Of a stretch of 64,000 bases of DNA, positions 48,120-56,373 are shown in pieces (the stretch's first letter is position 1; each line of letters begins with the position of its first letter). The DNA comes from Pseudomonas putida (lineage in GTDB: Bacteria > Pseudomonadota > Gammaproteobacteria > Pseudomonadales > Pseudomonadaceae): NCBI RefSeq assembly GCF_005080685.1, contig NZ_CP039371.1, forward strand, positions 1,798,001 through 1,862,000, given 5' to 3'. The position numbers and the translations under genes are program-made. The notes under the pieces are model-generated. The model searched no databases and had not been told where the DNA came from. It saw only the letters and a program-made list of their open reading frames with translations.

Positions 48120-49154
48120 ATGAAATTGAAAAACACCTTGGGCTTGGCCATTGGTTCGCTTGTAGCCGCCACTTCGATTGGCGCTATGGCACAAGGTCAA
48201 GGCGCCGTCGAGACTGAAATCTTCTACAAGAAAGAGTTCTTCGACAGCCAGCGCGACTTCAAGAACGACGGCAACCTGTTCGGCGGTTCCATCGGTTACT
48301 TCCTGACCGACGACGTCGAACTGCGTCTGGGCTACGACGAAGTACACAACGCTCGTGGCGACGACGGCAAGAACATCAAGGGCTCCAACACCGCCCTGGA
48401 CGCCGTTTACCACTTCAACAACCCGTACGATGCCATCCGTCCATACGTGTCGGCTGGTTTCTCGCACCAGAGCCTGGGCCAGACCGGCCGTGGCGGTCGT
48501 GACCACTCCACCTTCGCCAACATCGGCGCTGGCGCCAAGTGGTACATCACCGACATGTTCTACGCCCGTGCCGGCGTTGAAGCTCAGTACAACATCGACC
48601 AGGGCGACACCGAGTGGGCCCCGAGCGTTGGCGTTGGTCTGAACTTCGGCGGTAGCCCGAAGCAAGCTGAAGTCGCTCCGGCTCCAGTTGCCGAAGTCTG
48701 CTCTGACAGCGACAACGATGGCGTTTGCGACAACGTCGACAAGTGCCCTGACACCCCGGCCAACGTCACCGTTGACGCCGACGGCTGCCCGGCTGTTGCC
48801 GAAGTCGTTCGCGTTGAGCTGGACGTCAAGTTCGACTTCGACAAGTCGGTCGTCAAGCCAAACAGCTACGGCGACATCAAGAACCTGGCTGACTTCATGA
48901 AGCAGTACCCACAGACCACCACCACCGTGGAAGGTCACACTGACTCCGTCGGCCCAGACGCTTACAACCAGAAGCTGTCCGAGCGTCGTGCCAACGCTGT
49001 CAAGCAGGTCCTGACCCAGCAGTACGGTGTTGAATCGAGCCGTGTTGACTCGGTTGGCTACGGCGAAACCCGTCCGGTTGCCGACAACGCCACCGAAGAA
49101 GGCCGTGCTATCAACCGTCGCGTTGAAGCTCAGGTAGAAGCCCAGGCCAAGTAA
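48120..49154 (+). CDS. oprF: Major outer-membrane porin OprF
   Basis: A 344-residue OmpA-family porin. The signal peptide (LGLAIGSLVAATSIGAMA) is followed by an eight-strand N-terminal barrel, a linker with thrombospondin type-3-like DSDNDGVCDNVDKCPDTP holding cysteine pairs, and a C-terminal peptidoglycan-binding OmpA domain (EGHTDSVGPDAYNQKLSERR). Codon use favours T-ending codons more than its neighbours, as in highly expressed genes. It follows sigX by 110 bp, where a SigX-dependent promoter is expected from P. aeruginosa work. Confidence 0.97.
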   Translation: MKLKNTLGLAIGSLVAATSIGAMAQGQGAVETEIFYKKEFFDSQRDFKNDGNLFGGSIGYFLTDDVELRLGYDEVHNARGDDGKNIKGSNTALDAVYHFNNPYDAIRPYVSAGFSHQSLGQTGRGGRDHSTFANIGAGAKWYITDMFYARAGVEAQYNIDQGDTEWAPSVGVGLNFGGSPKQAEVAPAPVAEVCSDSDNDGVCDNVDKCPDTPANVTVDADGCPAVAEVVRVELDVKFDFDKSVVKPNSYGDIKNLADFMKQYPQTTTTVEGHTDSVGPDAYNQKLSERRANAVKQVLTQQYGVESSRVDSVGYGETRPVADNATEEGRAINRRVEAQVEAQAK

Positions 49155-49173: not shown

Positions 49174-49199
49174 AAAAACCCGGCCTCGGCCGGGTTTTT
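49174..49199 (+). terminator. oprF intrinsic terminator
   Basis: AAAAACCCGGCC-TC-GGCCGGGTTTTT is a perfect stem with A and T tracts, so it can end transcription from both directions, including from the nas cluster. Confidence 0.9.
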
Positions 49200-49234: not shown

Positions 49235-49435
49235 TTACCCAGCCATTGCGGCCAGGTCTTCGCCCACCTGTTCCCCAACCACCTCGCCAATCACCAGAAT
49301 CGCCGGGCTACGCAGTCCGAACGCCTGGGCCGTCTCGACCATTGCCCATACATCGCTACGGCATTCGCGCTGCTGCGCCAGCGAAGCGTTCTCGATCATT
49401 GCCACCGGCATCCCCGGCACTCCTCATCGGCAAGG
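49235..49435 (-). pseudogene. Remnant of cobA (uroporphyrinogen-III C-methyltransferase), C-terminal end only
   Basis: The frame ends at 49235 and encodes MPVAMIENASLAQQREC, then VETAQAFGLRSPAILVIGEV. This matches the last 60 or so residues of CobA/SirA-type SAM methyltransferases, which make sirohaem precursors for nitrite reductase. The preceding 180 or so residues (the SAM site and the rest of the fold) are absent. It begins within 30 bp of the end of the kinase gene, where intact relatives have nirB, nirD, nasC and full cobA. A real deletion rather than an error is likely. Confidence 0.85.
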
Positions 49436-49440
49436 CGCCT

Positions 49441-51108
49441 TCATCCCTTGAGCAGGATGAACAGCAGTATCAGGTTCAGCAGCAAGGACAGTAGCGCCAG
49501 GGTGCGCCATACCTTCAGCGGCTCGCGCTCGAGCAGCGGGCGCGGTCGGTCGGGCAGTTCCTGGCGTTCGCCGCGTTCGAGCAACAACAACCATTGCTCG
49601 GCGGTCTCGAAACGTTGCGCCGGGGCTACCGCCACGGCCTGCTGCAGGTTGTGTTGCAGCCATTCCGGCAGGTCGGGGCGATAGCGCGCGGCATTGACCG
49701 GCTGGCCGAAGCGTGGCCGTTGGAAGGCCTCGACTTCGCCGTACGGGTAGTGGCCGGTCAACAGGTAGTACAGGCTCACGCCCACGGCATAGAGGTCCTG
49801 GCGCGGGCTGGGAGGCTGCCCCTCGAACGACTCGGGGGCGATGAACGACGGTGTGCCCGGGACCTCGAACGGCAGGTCTTCGGACAAGCCTGGGCAGTAC
49901 GCCAGGCCGAAATCCAGCAGACGAAGTTGGCCATCCTGGCCCAGGTGCAGGTTGTCGGGCTTGATGTCGCGGTGCACCAGGTTGCGCCGGTGCAGCACAC
50001 CCACCGCGTGTAGGAGCTGGCGGGCTACCTCCAACCATTGCGGCAGCGGCAGGGGGCCGTGCTCTGCGAATATCTCGGCGAGGTTGCGGCCGCTGTACTC
50101 GCGCATCACGTAGTACAGGTGCTGGCGCTGGCTGCCGGCGTGCAGTTCGGGGAAATGGCGCCCAGCCACGCGGCGCAGGAACCACTCCTCCAGCAGCAGG
50201 CCCTGAACGGCACCGGGCTCTTCGCGAGTGGCTGGCAAGGTCTTGAGCAGCCACGGCTGGCCTTGTTGGTCGCGAACCCGGTAGAGCAGCGATTGACGGC
50301 TGTGCGCCAGCAGGCTGTCGACCTGCCAGCCATCGATTGCCTGGCCCTCGCGCAGGGGGCCAGGCAGCGGCCACTGGCTCAGTTGCGCCAGGGTGTCGCC
50401 AAGGTTGGCCGGACCGAGTTGCTCGACCTGCACCAGCAAGGCGCTGGCGTTGTCCTGGCTGCCATTGTGGTGGGCACTGGCCACCAGGGTATCGACGGCA
50501 ACCTGGGGGTCGGCTTGCTCGCGCAGTATCGACTGGATGTGCTGGTCGCCCAGGCTGGCCCAGACGCCGTCGCTGACCAGCAGGAAGCGCTCGCCCGCTT
50601 GCAGCTCGCCTTCGAGGTAATCGACCAGCAGATGCTGATCCAGGCCCAGGGCGCGTTTGAGCACATGCTGCATGCCGGGCTGGTCCCACACATGGTCTTC
50701 GCTCAGGCACTGCAACTGGCCGTCATGCCAGCGATAGGCGCGGCAGTCGCCGACATGCGCCAAGGTGTAGCGTCGCCCGCGCAGCACCAAGGCGCTGAGG
50801 GTGGTGAGCAGCGGCTGGCCGTTGCCTTGGGCACGCAGCCAGCGGTTCTGGGCGCTCAGCAGCCGGTCCAGGGCCTGGGGCACGCCCCAGGTCGCGGGTG
50901 TGGCGTAGTAGTCCAACGCCAGCGCCTGCAGGCTGGCCCGTGCTGCAAGGCCGCCGTCAGCGCACTGGCTGACACCATCGGCCAGGGCGAACAGGTAGCC
51001 CTTGCTCGCCGCCAGCTCCGGCCCCGGAGTGACCAGGCGCAGGGCGTCCTGGTTCTCCGCGCGCGGCCCGGTAGCGCTGGCCTGGGCGAAACTCAGCTGC
51101 AGGCTCAT
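49441..51108 (-). CDS. Fused PP2C phosphatase and Ser/Thr protein kinase with C-terminal membrane anchor
   Basis: A 555-residue protein. The N-terminal PP2C-type phosphatase (about 1-235) has ENQDALRL, LFALADGVSQCADGG and LLVSDGVWASLGD. The kinase domain (about 265-520) has the catalytic loop LVHRDIKPDNLHL and the DFG motif LLDFGLAYC followed by GTPSFIAPE. A C-terminal helix (LALLSLLLNLILLFILLKG) anchors it to the inner membrane. The protein always accompanies the assimilatory nitrate genes in pseudomonads, as I recall. The start is ATG 51108; GTG 51114 is an alternative. Confidence 0.9.
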   Translation of the reverse strand: MSLQLSFAQASATGPRAENQDALRLVTPGPELAASKGYLFALADGVSQCADGGLAARASLQALALDYYATPATWGVPQALDRLLSAQNRWLRAQGNGQPLLTTLSALVLRGRRYTLAHVGDCRAYRWHDGQLQCLSEDHVWDQPGMQHVLKRALGLDQHLLVDYLEGELQAGERFLLVSDGVWASLGDQHIQSILREQADPQVAVDTLVASAHHNGSQDNASALLVQVEQLGPANLGDTLAQLSQWPLPGPLREGQAIDGWQVDSLLAHSRQSLLYRVRDQQGQPWLLKTLPATREEPGAVQGLLLEEWFLRRVAGRHFPELHAGSQRQHLYYVMREYSGRNLAEIFAEHGPLPLPQWLEVARQLLHAVGVLHRRNLVHRDIKPDNLHLGQDGQLRLLDFGLAYCPGLSEDLPFEVPGTPSFIAPESFEGQPPSPRQDLYAVGVSLYYLLTGHYPYGEVEAFQRPRFGQPVNAARYRPDLPEWLQHNLQQAVAVAPAQRFETAEQWLLLLERGERQELPDRPRPLLEREPLKVWRTLALLSLLLNLILLFILLKG

Positions 51109-51117
51109 CGTCACGTC

Positions 51118-52329
51118 TCAGACCCGCGCCGCAGTCACGGCTGCCGAGCCCCAGGTGGTGCGCCAGCGACGCTTGACACCGTGCAGGCCGAACCAGGCCA
51201 GTACGCCGAGGCTGGCGAACAGCCACAGGCCCAGCTGGTAGTCGCCGGTGTGCTGCTTGATGGTGCCCAGGCCGGCAGCGAGGAGGAAGCCGCCGATGCC
51301 GCCGGCCATGCCGATCAGCCCGGTCATCACGCCGATTTCCTGGCGGAAGCGTTGTGGCACCAGCTGGAATACCGCGCCGTTGCCGGCACCGAGGCCGAGC
51401 ATGGCGCTGACGAACAGTGCCAGGGCCGCTGCGGCGCTGGGCAGGTTGAAGCCGACTGCGGCGATACAGATGGCGGCCACGCTGTACATGCCCAGCAGGG
51501 TGCGGATGCCACCGAAACGGTCGGCCAGGGCGCCGCCCAGCGGGCGCATGAGGCTACCGGCGAAGACGCAGGCGGCGGTGTAGTAGCCGGCGGTCACCGG
51601 GCTCAGGCCGTATTGGTCGCTGAAATAGCCGGGCAAGGCGCTGGCCAGGCCGATGAAGCCGCCGAAGGTGACGCTGTAGAAGAACATGAACCACCAGCTG
51701 TCGCGATCGCCGAGGGCCTTGAAGTAGTCGGCCATGGCTTTTGGCTTGGGGCGCTGTGGGGCATTGCGCGCCAGCAGGGCGAACACCAGCAGGGTCAGCA
51801 GCAGCGGGATCAGGGCAAAGCCGAACACGTTGCTCCAGCCGAAGGCTGCGGCCAGCATCGGGGCCAGCAGGGCGGCGAATACCGTGCCCGAGTTGCCGGC
51901 CCCGGCGATGCCCATGGCCTTGCCCTGGTGCTGCGGTGGATACCATTGCGAGGCGAGCGGCAGCGATACCGCGAACGAGGCGCCAGCAAAGCCGAGAAAC
52001 ACGCCCAGCAGCAGTGCTTGTTCATAGGTGTGCACACCCAGGTACCAGGCGCCGGCCAGGGCGCAGATGACCGCGATCTGGCCGATCAGCCCGGCGGTCT
52101 TGGGCGACAGTCGATCGACCAGCATGCCCATGGCAAAGCGCAGCACGGCGCCGGCGAGAATGGGCGTTGCCACCATCAGCCCCCGCTGCTGTGCGCTGAG
52201 CTGCAGGTCGGCGGCAATCTGCACCGCCAGAGGCCCGAGCAGGTACCAGACCATGAAGCTCAGGTCGAAATAGAGGAACGCGGCGAACAGCGTGGGCACA
52301 TGCCCGGATTTCCAGAAGCTGGTACTCAT
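51118..52329 (-). CDS. nasA: Nitrate/nitrite transporter (NNP family MFS)
   Basis: A 403-residue 12-helix MFS transporter of the nitrate-nitrite porter family. The two signature motifs appear as GIAGAGNSGTVFAALLAP in helix 5 and GLGAGNGAVFQLVPQRF in helix 11. It imports nitrate for assimilation. The ATG at 52329 (MSTSFWKSGH) is preceded by TGAGGTG. The upstream leader carries a terminator and NasT-type hairpins, so expression probably depends on NasT. It is four to ten bases ahead of the kinase gene. Confidence 0.9.
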   Translation of the reverse strand: MSTSFWKSGHVPTLFAAFLYFDLSFMVWYLLGPLAVQIAADLQLSAQQRGLMVATPILAGAVLRFAMGMLVDRLSPKTAGLIGQIAVICALAGAWYLGVHTYEQALLLGVFLGFAGASFAVSLPLASQWYPPQHQGKAMGIAGAGNSGTVFAALLAPMLAAAFGWSNVFGFALIPLLLTLLVFALLARNAPQRPKPKAMADYFKALGDRDSWWFMFFYSVTFGGFIGLASALPGYFSDQYGLSPVTAGYYTAACVFAGSLMRPLGGALADRFGGIRTLLGMYSVAAICIAAVGFNLPSAAAALALFVSAMLGLGAGNGAVFQLVPQRFRQEIGVMTGLIGMAGGIGGFLLAAGLGTIKQHTGDYQLGLWLFASLGVLAWFGLHGVKRRWRTTWGSAAVTAARV

Positions 52330-52359
52330 CGAACACCTCATTCGGCAATGCAACGGAAC

Positions 52360-52406
52360 AAAAAAACGCCGCTACCCGCTCCACGCAGGTGGAGGGGAGA
52401 GCGACG
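52360..52406 (-). terminator. Leader terminator (attenuator) of the nitrate transporter gene
   Basis: On the minus strand CGTCGCT (52406-52400) pairs with AGCGGCG (52373-52367), an inner stem CTCCAC-CTGC-GTGGAG caps it, and seven U follow (52366-52360). The hairpin ends about 30 bases before the coding start. Its 5' arm is shared with the second hexaloop hairpin, so the two structures exclude each other. Confidence 0.85.
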
Positions 52407-52445
52407 TCTTTGTCGGATGTGAGAGGGCAACCGCCGTTGGCTACC
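52402..52445 (-). promoter_or_regulatory. Tandem hexaloop ANTAR-target RNA motif (NasT leader)
   Basis: Two hairpins are read on the minus strand. The first is GGTAGCC-AACGGC-GGTTGCC (52445-52426). A 10-base linker follows. The second is CGAC-AAAGAC-GTCG (52415-52402). Both loops have six bases with A at position 1 and G at position 4, which is the published requirement for ANTAR protein binding. The second overlaps the terminator arm, as in NasR/NasT leader antitermination. The ANTAR protein NasT is encoded just upstream. Confidence 0.85.
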
Positions 52446-52459
52446 GGTGCGATATCTTC

Positions 52460-52475
52460 AGCAAGAGATGGGCCA
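52460..52475 (-). promoter_or_regulatory. Candidate sigma-54 promoter of the nitrate transporter gene
   Basis: On the minus strand TGGCCC-ATCTC-TTGCT reads as the -24/-12 element (consensus TGGCAC-N5-TTGCW) with one mismatch. A start site near 52449 would place hairpin one at about +5. Sigma-54/NtrC control is the normal mode for these genes in Pseudomonas. Confidence 0.7.
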
Positions 52476-52533
52476 ACTTGGCACCTGCGGCCTTTTGCAG
52501 GCGCGACACAAGGCCGCTTCCACAAGGATGGCG

Positions 52534-53109
52534 CTAGCCGAGCATTTCATGCATGGCGATGATCTGTTCGGCGACCTGGATCAGCTTCTGCTGGCGGCTC
52601 ATGGCCTGGCGCCGCATCAGGGTGTAGGCCTCTTCCTCGTTGCAGTCCTTCATCTTCATCAACAAGCCCTTGGCCTGCTCGATGCGTTTGCGCTCGGCCA
52701 GTTGCAGATCGCGGGCCTGCAACTGCGCCTTGAGTGCCTGGTCGCTCTCGAAGCGGACCATCGCCACGTCGAGGATCGGCTGCAGGCGCGCGGCGTGGAT
52801 GCCTTCGACGATGTACGCGCTGACCCCCGCCTGGATCGCCTGGCGCATCACCCCAGGGTCGTGCTCGTCGGTGAACAGCACGATCGGCCTGGGCCGGTCG
52901 CGGCTTAGCAGCACCACGTGTTCCATCACGTCGCGGCCAGGTGAGTCGCTATCGATCAGCACCACGTCCGGACGCACCGTTTCAACGCAGGCTGGCAGGT
53001 CGATGGTCAAGTCTGGGGCTTCGATGACCTCGAAGCCGGCCTCGCTCAGCGCGGCCTTGAGGCGGCCGAGTTTCATCTGGGTATCGTCGATCAGCAGGAT
53101 GCGCAGCAT
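52534..53109 (-). CDS. nasT: NasT, ANTAR-domain antiterminator
   Basis: A 191-residue response-regulator-like protein. The receiver domain (LRILLIDDTQMKLGRLKAAL to about residue 120, with the phospho-acceptor position at Asp53 in LIDSDSPGRD) is followed by a C-terminal ANTAR domain (RIEQAKGLLMKMKDCNEEEA, then ALMRRQAMS-type helix). It binds tandem hexaloop leaders and blocks termination when released from NasS by nitrate. The start at 53109 (MLRILLID) is chosen; the longer frame overlaps nasS. It lies 11 bp after nasS. Confidence 0.93.
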   Translation of the reverse strand: MLRILLIDDTQMKLGRLKAALSEAGFEVIEAPDLTIDLPACVETVRPDVVLIDSDSPGRDVMEHVVLLSRDRPRPIVLFTDEHDPGVMRQAIQAGVSAYIVEGIHAARLQPILDVAMVRFESDQALKAQLQARDLQLAERKRIEQAKGLLMKMKDCNEEEAYTLMRRQAMSRQQKLIQVAEQIIAMHEMLG

Positions 53110-53120
53110 GGTCGTCGTCC

Positions 53121-54335
53121 TCACCGGCCAACATGGGCGCGGGGCGCCTCGTCCAAGGCATGCAGGCGGAAGCTGCGGGCGTAGCCATGGGGGTCGCTGC
53201 CGTCCCAGCGCGTGCCGTCGATCAGCAGGCTGCTGCGCATGGGCAGTTCCGGGCAAGGCACGGCAAGGGCGCCGGCGGCTTCGCGATACAACGTCAGTTG
53301 CTGGACGTCGCGCGCCACGCCCAGGTAGTCGGGGTCGTCACGCAGCAGGCCCCAACGGCGGAACTGGGTCATGAACCACATGCCGTCGGACAGGTAGGGC
53401 AGGTTGGCCCGGCCCTGGTCGAACACCCGCAGACCGTGCGGGTCCTGCCAGTGGTTGCCGAGGCCGTCGTGGTAGTCGCCATGCAGGCGTGGCTCGATGC
53501 TGGCCAGCGGTGTGTCCAGATAGGCACTGCCGCTCAACAGTTGCGCGGTGCTGCGGCGGTTGTCCGCGCTTTGTTCGATGAAACGGCTGGCGGCAAGGAT
53601 GGCCTTGATCAGGGCGCGAGCGCTGTTGGGGTACTGCTCGACGAAGGCCCGGGCGCAGCCCAGGACCTTTTCCGGATGGTCCGGCCAAATCGACTGGCTG
53701 GTCGCCAGGGTGAAGCCCTGGCCGCGTTCCACGGCATCGGCCGACCAGGGCTCGCCGACGCAGAAGCCATCGATGCGCCCGGCTTCCAGGTGGGCGAGCA
53801 TCTGCGCAGGAGGGACCACCACGCTGTCGACGTCGTGCAGTGGATGGATGCCTTGGCTGGCGAGCCAGTAGTACAGCCACATGGCGTGGGTGCCGGTGGG
53901 GAAGGTCTGGGCGAAGGTCAGTCGTGCGCCATGTTGGTGCACTTGGCGTGCGAGTGCCTCAGGGCTGGTCACGCCCTTGCGCTGCAGTGCCGGGGACAGG
54001 TTGATGGCCTGGGCATTCTGGTTCAGGCCCATGAGTACCGCCATGGGGCTGGCCGGAACGCCGCCGATGCCCAGGTGCACGGCATAGACCAGGCCGTACA
54101 GGCAGTGGGCGGCATCCAGCTCGCCGCTGACCAGCTTGTCGCGCAGGCCGGCCCAGGAGTGCTGGCGTTTGAGGTTGAGGGTCAGGCCGTACTGCTGGGC
54201 GAAGCCCTGGGTGGCGGCGACCACCACCGAGGCGCAATCGGTCAGCGCCATGAAGCCGATATCGAGGCTGGGTTTTTCCGGGGCGTCGCTGCCGTTGAGC
54301 CAAGCCAGGGGTGTTGCCAGGGGGGACGTGTTCAC
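53121..54335 (-). CDS. nasS: NasS, nitrate-sensing NasT antagonist
   Basis: A 404-residue periplasmic-binding-protein-like sensor without a signal peptide, so cytoplasmic. NrtA-type ligand features are [20 protein letters not shown] near the N-terminus, and [14 protein letters not shown] and [17 protein letters not shown] further on. In the absence of nitrate NasS binds and blocks NasT. The start is a GTG at 54335 with GAGGAAA six bases upstream. It is divergent from pyrD. Confidence 0.92.
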
Positions 54336-54435
54336 AGGTTTCCTCGCCCGTACGGAATAGGCAGTGTGCTGGCAACGAAGCAACCCATGTGCCAAGCGCC
54401 CGGAGGATTTGCTGTCATGCCAGGCCGGCGCTGGC

Positions 54436-55596: not shown

Positions 55597-55812
55597 TCAG
55601 CCAACGGCGTGATTTTCGTTGAGTCTATGGATGCCAGCGGTGCCAGTCATTCCGTCCCAGTTATCACCGCGACCTTCGCGCCAGCCGTTGATCCAGGCTT
55701 GGCGAACTGAAGGAAGATTGAAGGGGCAAAGTTCGCGGGATTTGCCGGTGACCCCGTATTGGTAGCCACGTGAATATGCTCTTTCCAACGGATCACGCTT
55801 AAGTCTTCTCAT
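55597..55812 (-). CDS. rmf: Ribosome modulation factor
   Basis: A 71-residue basic protein that dimerises 70S ribosomes into inactive 100S particles in stationary phase. The sequence AYSRGYQYGVTGKSRELCP and AWINGWREGRGDNWDG is diagnostic. ATG 55812 is preceded by GAGGG. Its leader has a stable hairpin (GGCCTCAGTGAGGCC, about 55850-55865). Confidence 0.94.
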   Translation of the reverse strand: MRRLKRDPLERAYSRGYQYGVTGKSRELCPFNLPSVRQAWINGWREGRGDNWDGMTGTAGIHRLNENHAVG

Positions 55813-56373
55813 AGGGTGTTGCCCTCACTTGTTGACTGTAATGTCCCGTCGGCCTCACTGAGGCCGGGCAGAGTCTTTCTGCCGGTTTGCGCTCGCTGCC
55901 GGCGTCGCGAGCTGAAAGTGCCGCCTCATTGCGAAGTGGCCTGAGACCAGTTCTATCGAAAGCAGATCGCCCTGGGAATGATCGATTTGTCATAAGGACG
56001 TAACCTTTCATAGGGTGAAAGGATAAGTAAATAAATGCGACTCAACCTTGTTTAGGCTAGAGCCGCCTATGATCGGGGTTTGCCCTGCACTGTTGGCGAA
56101 TCGCCATGGGTGTTGGGCACTGCAGGAAATATCTAGTAATGCGACGAAGGGTCACATTGGCTCCCTGTCGTTGGAAATCTTTCGTACTGCCTGATGATCT
56201 AAGCTGTTTTTGCCACCCGGCAAGCAGCCCATGCACCAGGCGGCCCGGCCTGTCCTTCGCGCAGTACGCGCGGTGGCAGCCACCCGGACGCTTGCAAAAA
56301 GAGCGTTCGGGCAAACATCGGCAAGGCGATGCGTCGCCTCGTCACTCAAACAGCCCAAGGCTCTGGAAGACTC
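55813..56373. other. Gene-free region between rmf and rlmL
   Basis: About 560 bp with lower GC in its middle. It holds the rmf leader hairpin, a small inverted repeat CCTTTCA-TAGGG-TGAAAGG (56004-56022), and presumably the promoters of both divergent genes. A TATGAT at 56068-56073 has only a poorly spaced TTGTTT before it. No reading frame here has protein-like character; a small RNA cannot be excluded. Confidence 0.5.

Follow-up and report, generated by a model that had tools for sequence, protein, structure and literature searches.

A probable cobA pseudogene beside the nitrate regulatory genes of Pseudomonas putida, with nitrate and nitrite reductase genes encoded elsewhere in the genome

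A short 3' piece of cobA, the gene for uroporphyrinogen-III C-methyltransferase, lies between a kinase gene and oprF in a stretch of 64,000 nucleotides of a Pseudomonas putida contig (hereinafter, the window). This locus raises the question of how the rest of the gene disappeared and whether nitrate and nitrite reductase genes disappeared along with it, in a single deletion of several kilobases that might have cost the strain its assimilatory nitrate reduction, as suggested in the first-pass annotation of this DNA.

The cobA remnant and its surroundings

In the window, oprF (48120..49154, plus strand; identified by matches to the OmpA family and named as in the first-pass annotation) points towards the minus-strand nasS, nasT, transporter and kinase genes. 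The kinase gene (49441..51114, minus strand) encodes a 557 aa fusion of a protein phosphatase 2C and a Ser-Thr kinase (Pfam PP2C_2 and Pkinase). It is followed, in the order of coordinates, by the gene for a NarK-family nitrate/nitrite transporter (51118..52353, minus strand; TIGR00886, 317.7 bits with the cut-off of 311.7), with a narK RNA leader, RF03032, located 5' of it (52401..52474, minus strand; 74.8 bits, gathering score 43.2), by the response regulator gene nasT (52534..53112, minus strand; Pfam Response_reg and ANTAR), and by a gene for an NMT1-like binding protein (53121..54395, minus strand; Pfam NMT1_2, 304.7 bits), which we take to be nasS from the gene order. Thus, the order transporter, nasT, nasS extends over positions 51118-54395. 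For P. putida KT2440, PMC7261876 and PMC7801951 disagree as to which of PP_2093 and PP_2094 is nasT. Beyond this array, an rmf RNA leader, RF01755, is detected at positions 55831-55960 (119.7 bits, gathering score 45), before a 71 aa frame (55597-55812).

The remnant itself (49235..49420, minus strand) was delineated by the match to TIGR01469 and by alignment to intact relatives. It consists of 61 codons counted from a GTG, is homologous to the CobA region that runs from about codon 187 to codon 246, and starts 20 bp past the kinase stop codon (49441-49443), within the 286 bp that separate this codon from the end of the oprF frame (49154). These values agree with the first-pass annotation, which proposed about 60 codons (58-61 are found) starting within 30 bp of the kinase stop; the span given there, 49235..49441, holds at its first coordinate but not at the second, which is that of the kinase stop. 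The 61 aa translation matches positions 190-235 of the 238 positions of TIGR01469 with 35 bits against the cut-off of 185, and a scan of the whole genome with the same model yields 31.6 bits over positions 189-235; a Pfam search with the 61 aa remnant at an E-value of 1 gives no match. Accordingly, the remnant falls short of the whole-domain score of this model, with the last 46-58 residues of CobA aligned. The N-terminal part is absent, along with the glycine-rich GAGPGDPELLTL stretch that intact relatives have in it, and the missing codons, 1 to about 186-188, make up three quarters of the protein. The alignment with the intact CobA of 25 near loci is gapless over 45 codons, and the best near locus is 86% identical over 151 bp, so the match is more than chance. 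A search of predicted proteins for the remnant produces 39 matches of 48-107 aa, none identical and the best with 83% identity; the 10 of these that were inspected are mostly pieces starting at an inner methionine of CobA. Between the remnant and oprF lies a terminator-like hairpin (49174..49199), recognized by eye and kept in 7 aligned relatives.

In the 42 relatives in which cobA lies beside the kinase gene, 556-565 bp (median 562) are present that the window does not have. The junction of this deletion of about 0.56 kb maps to 49416..49422 (minus strand), a range within which the exact bases are not fixable without the ancestor. The longest stretch common to both breakpoint zones is 4-5 bp in all 9 relatives checked, and no longer direct repeat is found in these 9. 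A search for the junction, with up to 3 mismatches allowed, among 398 genomes of the genus retrieves this genome only. The possible assembly gap at the junction that the first-pass annotation had in mind is not there: the window contains no N bases, and the junction lies inside a single contig of 6,495,886 bp (the genome, 6.61 Mb, comes in two contigs; a plasmid search found nothing). A cluster of kinase sequences, P0040 (90% level, 20 member sequences), is 99% identical to the kinase of the window.

States of the locus in related pseudomonads

The comparison covers 88 kinase loci: the window, 12 Pseudomonas loci taken from 80 kinase matches (the other 68 come from different genera or phyla) and 75 loci from 74 further genomes of the genus. 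The 75 loci come from the top of the kinase ranking among the matches listed, with some lower ones, so that near relatives weigh most. Genome G144, where kinase and oprF are on different contigs, stands outside the comparison; L155-L159, with oprF and no kinase, were left out of both the locus comparison and the tree; L053, L161, L165, L166, L171, L186 and L210 are in the tree without an interval length, with oprF lying outside the stretch. The label "operon" was set by the distance between cobA and the kinase gene, and the number of loci with nirB or nasC that lack cobA was read separately from the comparison table; the "fragment" labels of L139 and L178 were assigned by eye from the alignment and then checked by the cobA match.

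Intact cobA stands alone directly behind the kinase gene, with the flanks preserved and without nirB or nasC, in 42 of the 88 loci, and together with nirB-type genes in 21; it is absent from 22 and reduced to a remnant in 3. Thus, 25 loci lack intact cobA, and none of these is among the 21 with nirB-type genes (0/21 versus 25/67 of the others). In these 67 loci, the window included, neither nirBD nor nasC lies between kinase and oprF. Comparison of the junction with the 42 loci with lone cobA confirms a deletion with one end inside cobA, as the first-pass annotation proposed. The size proposed there, several kilobases, does not apply to this event: given the prevalence of lone cobA, the several-kilobase difference from P. 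aeruginosa appears to be older and shared. Counted from the kinase stop, lone cobA begins at position 22-31. The kinase-cobA spacer of these loci, most of which carry a GAGGA-like ribosome-binding site in it, survives in the window. We regard the remnant as a pseudogene, most plausibly produced by internal deletion.

The three remnants, those of the window, G089 and G157, have different shapes. In G089, 93 bp of the last cobA codons are kept, 91% identical to the sister locus L199; in G157, the first few codons (by eye) are followed by a stretch near the end of the gene, 33 bp at 97% identity. At the other 22 of these 25 loci, no piece of the gene is recognizable. Weak cobA matches (22-46 bp) in L138, L150, L188, L189 and L197 were read by eye as repeats because they fall at the 3' ends of frames that run into repeat-like sequence.

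Some other features of these intervals were observed in passing. At L020:8952-9034 and in several cobA-less intervals, inverted-repeat elements with a "GTAGGAGCGG"-like core are discernible by eye; they fill intergenic spaces and, again by eye, also former cobA sites. The kinase-oprF interval of L154 (G007) reaches 5.5 kb and contains intact cobA along with an insert carrying a 786-codon frame that looks, by eye, like a FAD-dependent oxidoreductase. The OprF proteins of near relatives (kinase identity of 81% or more) form two classes, about 95-99% or 82-86% identical to that of the window, which are mixed across the kinase tree; this mixing suggests recombination of oprF alleles.

Could the remnant be a working gene? 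A possible 58 aa open reading frame (49235..49411, minus strand) starts at the first in-frame ATG, which corresponds to CobA codon 189, and is open to the native stop. The GAGGAG at 49420..49425 (minus strand), which aligns where most relatives have the ribosome-binding site of their intact cobA and probably has the same role, now lies 8 nt upstream of this ATG. Constraint, moreover, is not clearly relaxed: against the 25 intact loci, the remnant has a mean pN of 0.106 and pS of 0.54, compared to 0.088 and 0.46 among these loci themselves, so that its amino acid divergence is not clearly raised, over 45 codons only, and decay after the deletion is not visible. The deletion might, then, have joined the cobA ribosome-binding site to an internal ATG, such that a 58 aa CobA tail would be made from the transporter-kinase message on nitrate and could act on the CysG methyltransferase dimer, but we consider such a chain of events highly improbable. 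Equally slim are the chances that the tail is functional in any such manner, for example, by binding this dimer: the N-terminal three quarters of the protein are gone, the junction occurs in one of 398 genomes, the two other remnants differ in shape, and most loci that lack intact cobA (22 of 25) retain no recognizable piece of the gene. The lack of clear relaxation is also what is expected of a pseudogene if the deletion is recent.

The distribution of these states was mapped on a quick gene tree of the 3' part of the kinase (88 rows), which is unrooted and does not distinguish gain from loss. Between intact cobA and its lack, at least 12 changes are required on this tree, and the starred branches alone force at least 7 changes for the label "none", numbers that come from rows that are not independent and from a sample weighted to near relatives. 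The side of the tree that contains the window comprises 63 rows without nirB or nasC, including P. vlassakiae, P. vranovensis and P. huaxiensis, and is set off by a branch with weak support (73). In all five rows nearest to the window by path, lone cobA is intact and directly follows the kinase gene. Lone cobA also appears twice on the operon side, in L163 (G139) and in L055 (P. azerbaijanoccidentalis), with the start at position 26; hence, this state arose, or spread, more than once. The presence of the operon in P. aeruginosa and in genomes named P. fluorescens, P. brassicacearum and P. laurylsulfatiphila leads us to infer that the operon state is ancestral, and the direction of the changes discussed below would follow this order. 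Away from the old operon, losses of cobA appear to have been numerous.

Nitrate and nitrite reductase genes elsewhere in the genome

The first-pass annotation advised a search of the whole genome for nirB, nirD and another cobA. Open nasA, nirB and nirD frames are found at C1:1518872-1526107 of the same genome. The remote nirB (C1:1523229-1525610) precedes the window by about 270 kb, lies about 320 kb from the remnant and scores 1062 bits with TIGR02374 (cut-off 578.35). Downstream, with a one-base overlap, is the gene for a 120 aa NirD-type protein (Rieske_2, 125.7 bits), so that a NirB above the cut-off adjoins a NirD-type Rieske protein, as in NirBD-type reductases. Upstream of nirB, a fused nasA encodes a 1342 aa protein whose domains (molybdopterin, flavodoxin, FAD and NAD) form a nitrate-reductase-like catalytic part and, after it, a CysJ-like part; none of the NCBIfam models reaches its cut-off on this fusion. 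With these frames open, the loss of nitrate assimilation was rejected, and the reductase genes reported as deleted have counterparts in a different set elsewhere; the strain would be expected to grow on nitrate. The search for another cobA yields only CysG and CobM as strong matches. The CysG frame (463 aa) is a siroheme synthase (666.4 bits over residues 3-449, cut-off 400) that carries the same methyltransferase domain as CobA. The next-best TIGR01469 match (C1:2865679-2866356) was rejected as a second cobA, being the precorrin-4 C11-methyltransferase CobM (300.7 bits, cut-off 259.65). Altogether, there are six TIGR01469 matches in the genome: CobM, the one better than it, and four after these, namely the remnant and three others, at 25-35 bits.

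The remote NirB is only 34-38% (about 35%) identical to the kinase-locus NirB of other pseudomonads. This low similarity speaks against a simple relocation of the same genes; of the earlier suggestion that nitrate reduction had moved elsewhere, the presence of genes elsewhere stands and the simple move does not. The kinase-locus nitrite genes apparently were replaced rather than moved. NirB of the window strain's own type, at 79-100% identity, is present in 68 of the 74 genomes searched (this genome is among the 74, and G072, with 7% contamination and two of the 75 loci, was left out). In 12 of these 68, for example, G089, G140 and G204, the match contains one stop codon, which could reflect an early frame end, a broken gene or a stop that is read past; two of the 12, G089 and G140, are genomes without intact cobA. 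The kinase-locus type exceeds the threshold in 13 of the 74 genomes, nearly full length in 8 and over about the first 400 residues in 5. Both types occur together in 8 of the 13, five of which have a kinase-locus copy matching about the first 400 residues, and the kinase-locus type is found alone in the other 5. A fourteenth kinase-locus copy, in G054, is seen only in the looser locus comparison. L020:9125-11746 and the kinase loci of 14 genomes thus display two deeply different NirB types within the genus. In G384 (96% complete, with intact lone cobA), neither type gives a match at an E-value of 1e-60.

The NirB and CysG searches cover 24 of the 25 loci without intact cobA, the 25th being that of P. 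vlassakiae. All 24 genomes have the own-type NirB, and all 24 have a CysG-sized frame (462-478 aa) above the TIGR01469 cut-off. In G306, one of these genomes, a second full methyltransferase match exceeds the cut-off, so CysG need not be the sole such enzyme there. In genomes on the lone-cobA side, nitrate and nitrite reduction is, by all appearances, encoded by a different, unlinked nasA-nirBD set.

These observations bear on the single event suggested originally, in which one deletion of several kilobases took nirBD, nasC and most of cobA and assimilatory nitrate reduction was lost. Such an origin would fit the presence of nirB-type genes with cobA at 21 of the 88 loci and the nirBD-nasC-cobA arrangement reported for P. 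aeruginosa in PMC8092218. It is nevertheless very hard to uphold: the five nearest rows have lone cobA with the same 5' spacer that survives at the junction, a survival that contradicts a single several-kilobase deletion, and nasA, nirB and nirD are present elsewhere in the genome. Misassembly of the junction, which is known from the assembled contig, has a similarly low probability, given that this is one place in a 6.5-Mb contig without N, that the breakpoint zones share no more than 4-5 bp in 9 relatives, and that two other genomes with different remnants and 22 loci without cobA indicate that cobA losses are common.

Origin of the remnant and comparison with known systems

The best explanation, to which we assign a probability of about 0.93, is that the remnant is a cobA pseudogene in decay, that it arose in two steps and that the nitrate genes are located elsewhere. 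In the first step, older and common to the window's side of the tree, nirBD and nasC would have been lost, leaving intact cobA behind the transporter and kinase genes. The second step, in this lineage, would be a deletion of about 0.56 kb that removed cobA codons 1 to about 186-188, sparing the sequence before cobA and the last 58 codons. CysG, with the same methyltransferase domain, could supply siroheme, which probably made the loss tolerable. Given the different nasA-nirBD set elsewhere, the truncation can be viewed as ordinary gene erosion.

Alone, the case is of little weight, being one more redundant gene in decay. For annotation, however, a cobA locus without nirBD-nasC must not be taken to mean that nitrate assimilation has been lost, given that the second, about 35% identical NirB type is present in 68 of the 74 genomes searched. 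Furthermore, because cobA has been lost repeatedly, comparisons of sister species could test how CobA and CysG share the supply of siroheme.

The regulatory genes of the window most likely still serve both places. The narK RNA RF03032 is detected also before the remote nasA (51.5, gathering score 43.2), and a P11-like match before nirB stays below its gathering score (37.9 against 70). The genome thus combines an ANTAR regulator with leader RNAs before the putative targets, and the ANTAR domain in NasT together with leaders at both places makes joint control likely: NasS-NasT would switch on the transporter and the remote reductase cluster via the RNA leaders. The RNA and domain families, together with PMC7261876, suggest that the narK RNA is a target of NasT. 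Antitermination in the P. aeruginosa nirBD-PA1779-cobA operon was reportedly described in a 2012 paper, which both PMC8092218 and PMC7801951 cite. The flanking gene order around nirBD-nasC-cobA in P. aeruginosa PAO1 follows the first-pass annotation, which compared the window with it. The operon itself, nirBD-nasC(PA1779)-cobA with cobA as the last gene named, is reported in PMC8092218. In P. putida, according to PMC7261876, NasT acts on PP_1703 and on nirBD (PP_1705-1706), and a nasT deletion strain loses growth on nitrate. PMC7801951 gives PP_2090 as cobA of KT2440, far from the reductases by locus number, with an about 7- to 13-fold increase when nitrogen is limiting.

Against the complete CobA (SUMT, TIGR01469), the window retains a sequence that aligns to the last 46-58 residues at 35 bits, where the cut-off is 185. 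In P. aeruginosa, nirBD and nasC belong to the cobA operon, according to PMC8092218, whereas in the window both are absent between kinase and oprF. KT2440, as described in the two P. putida reports, resembles the window in that the transporter and regulators (PP_2092, PP_2093-2094) lie apart from the reductases (PP_1703, PP_1705-1706) by locus number, but cobA is annotated there, whereas in the window strain it is cut to its last quarter.
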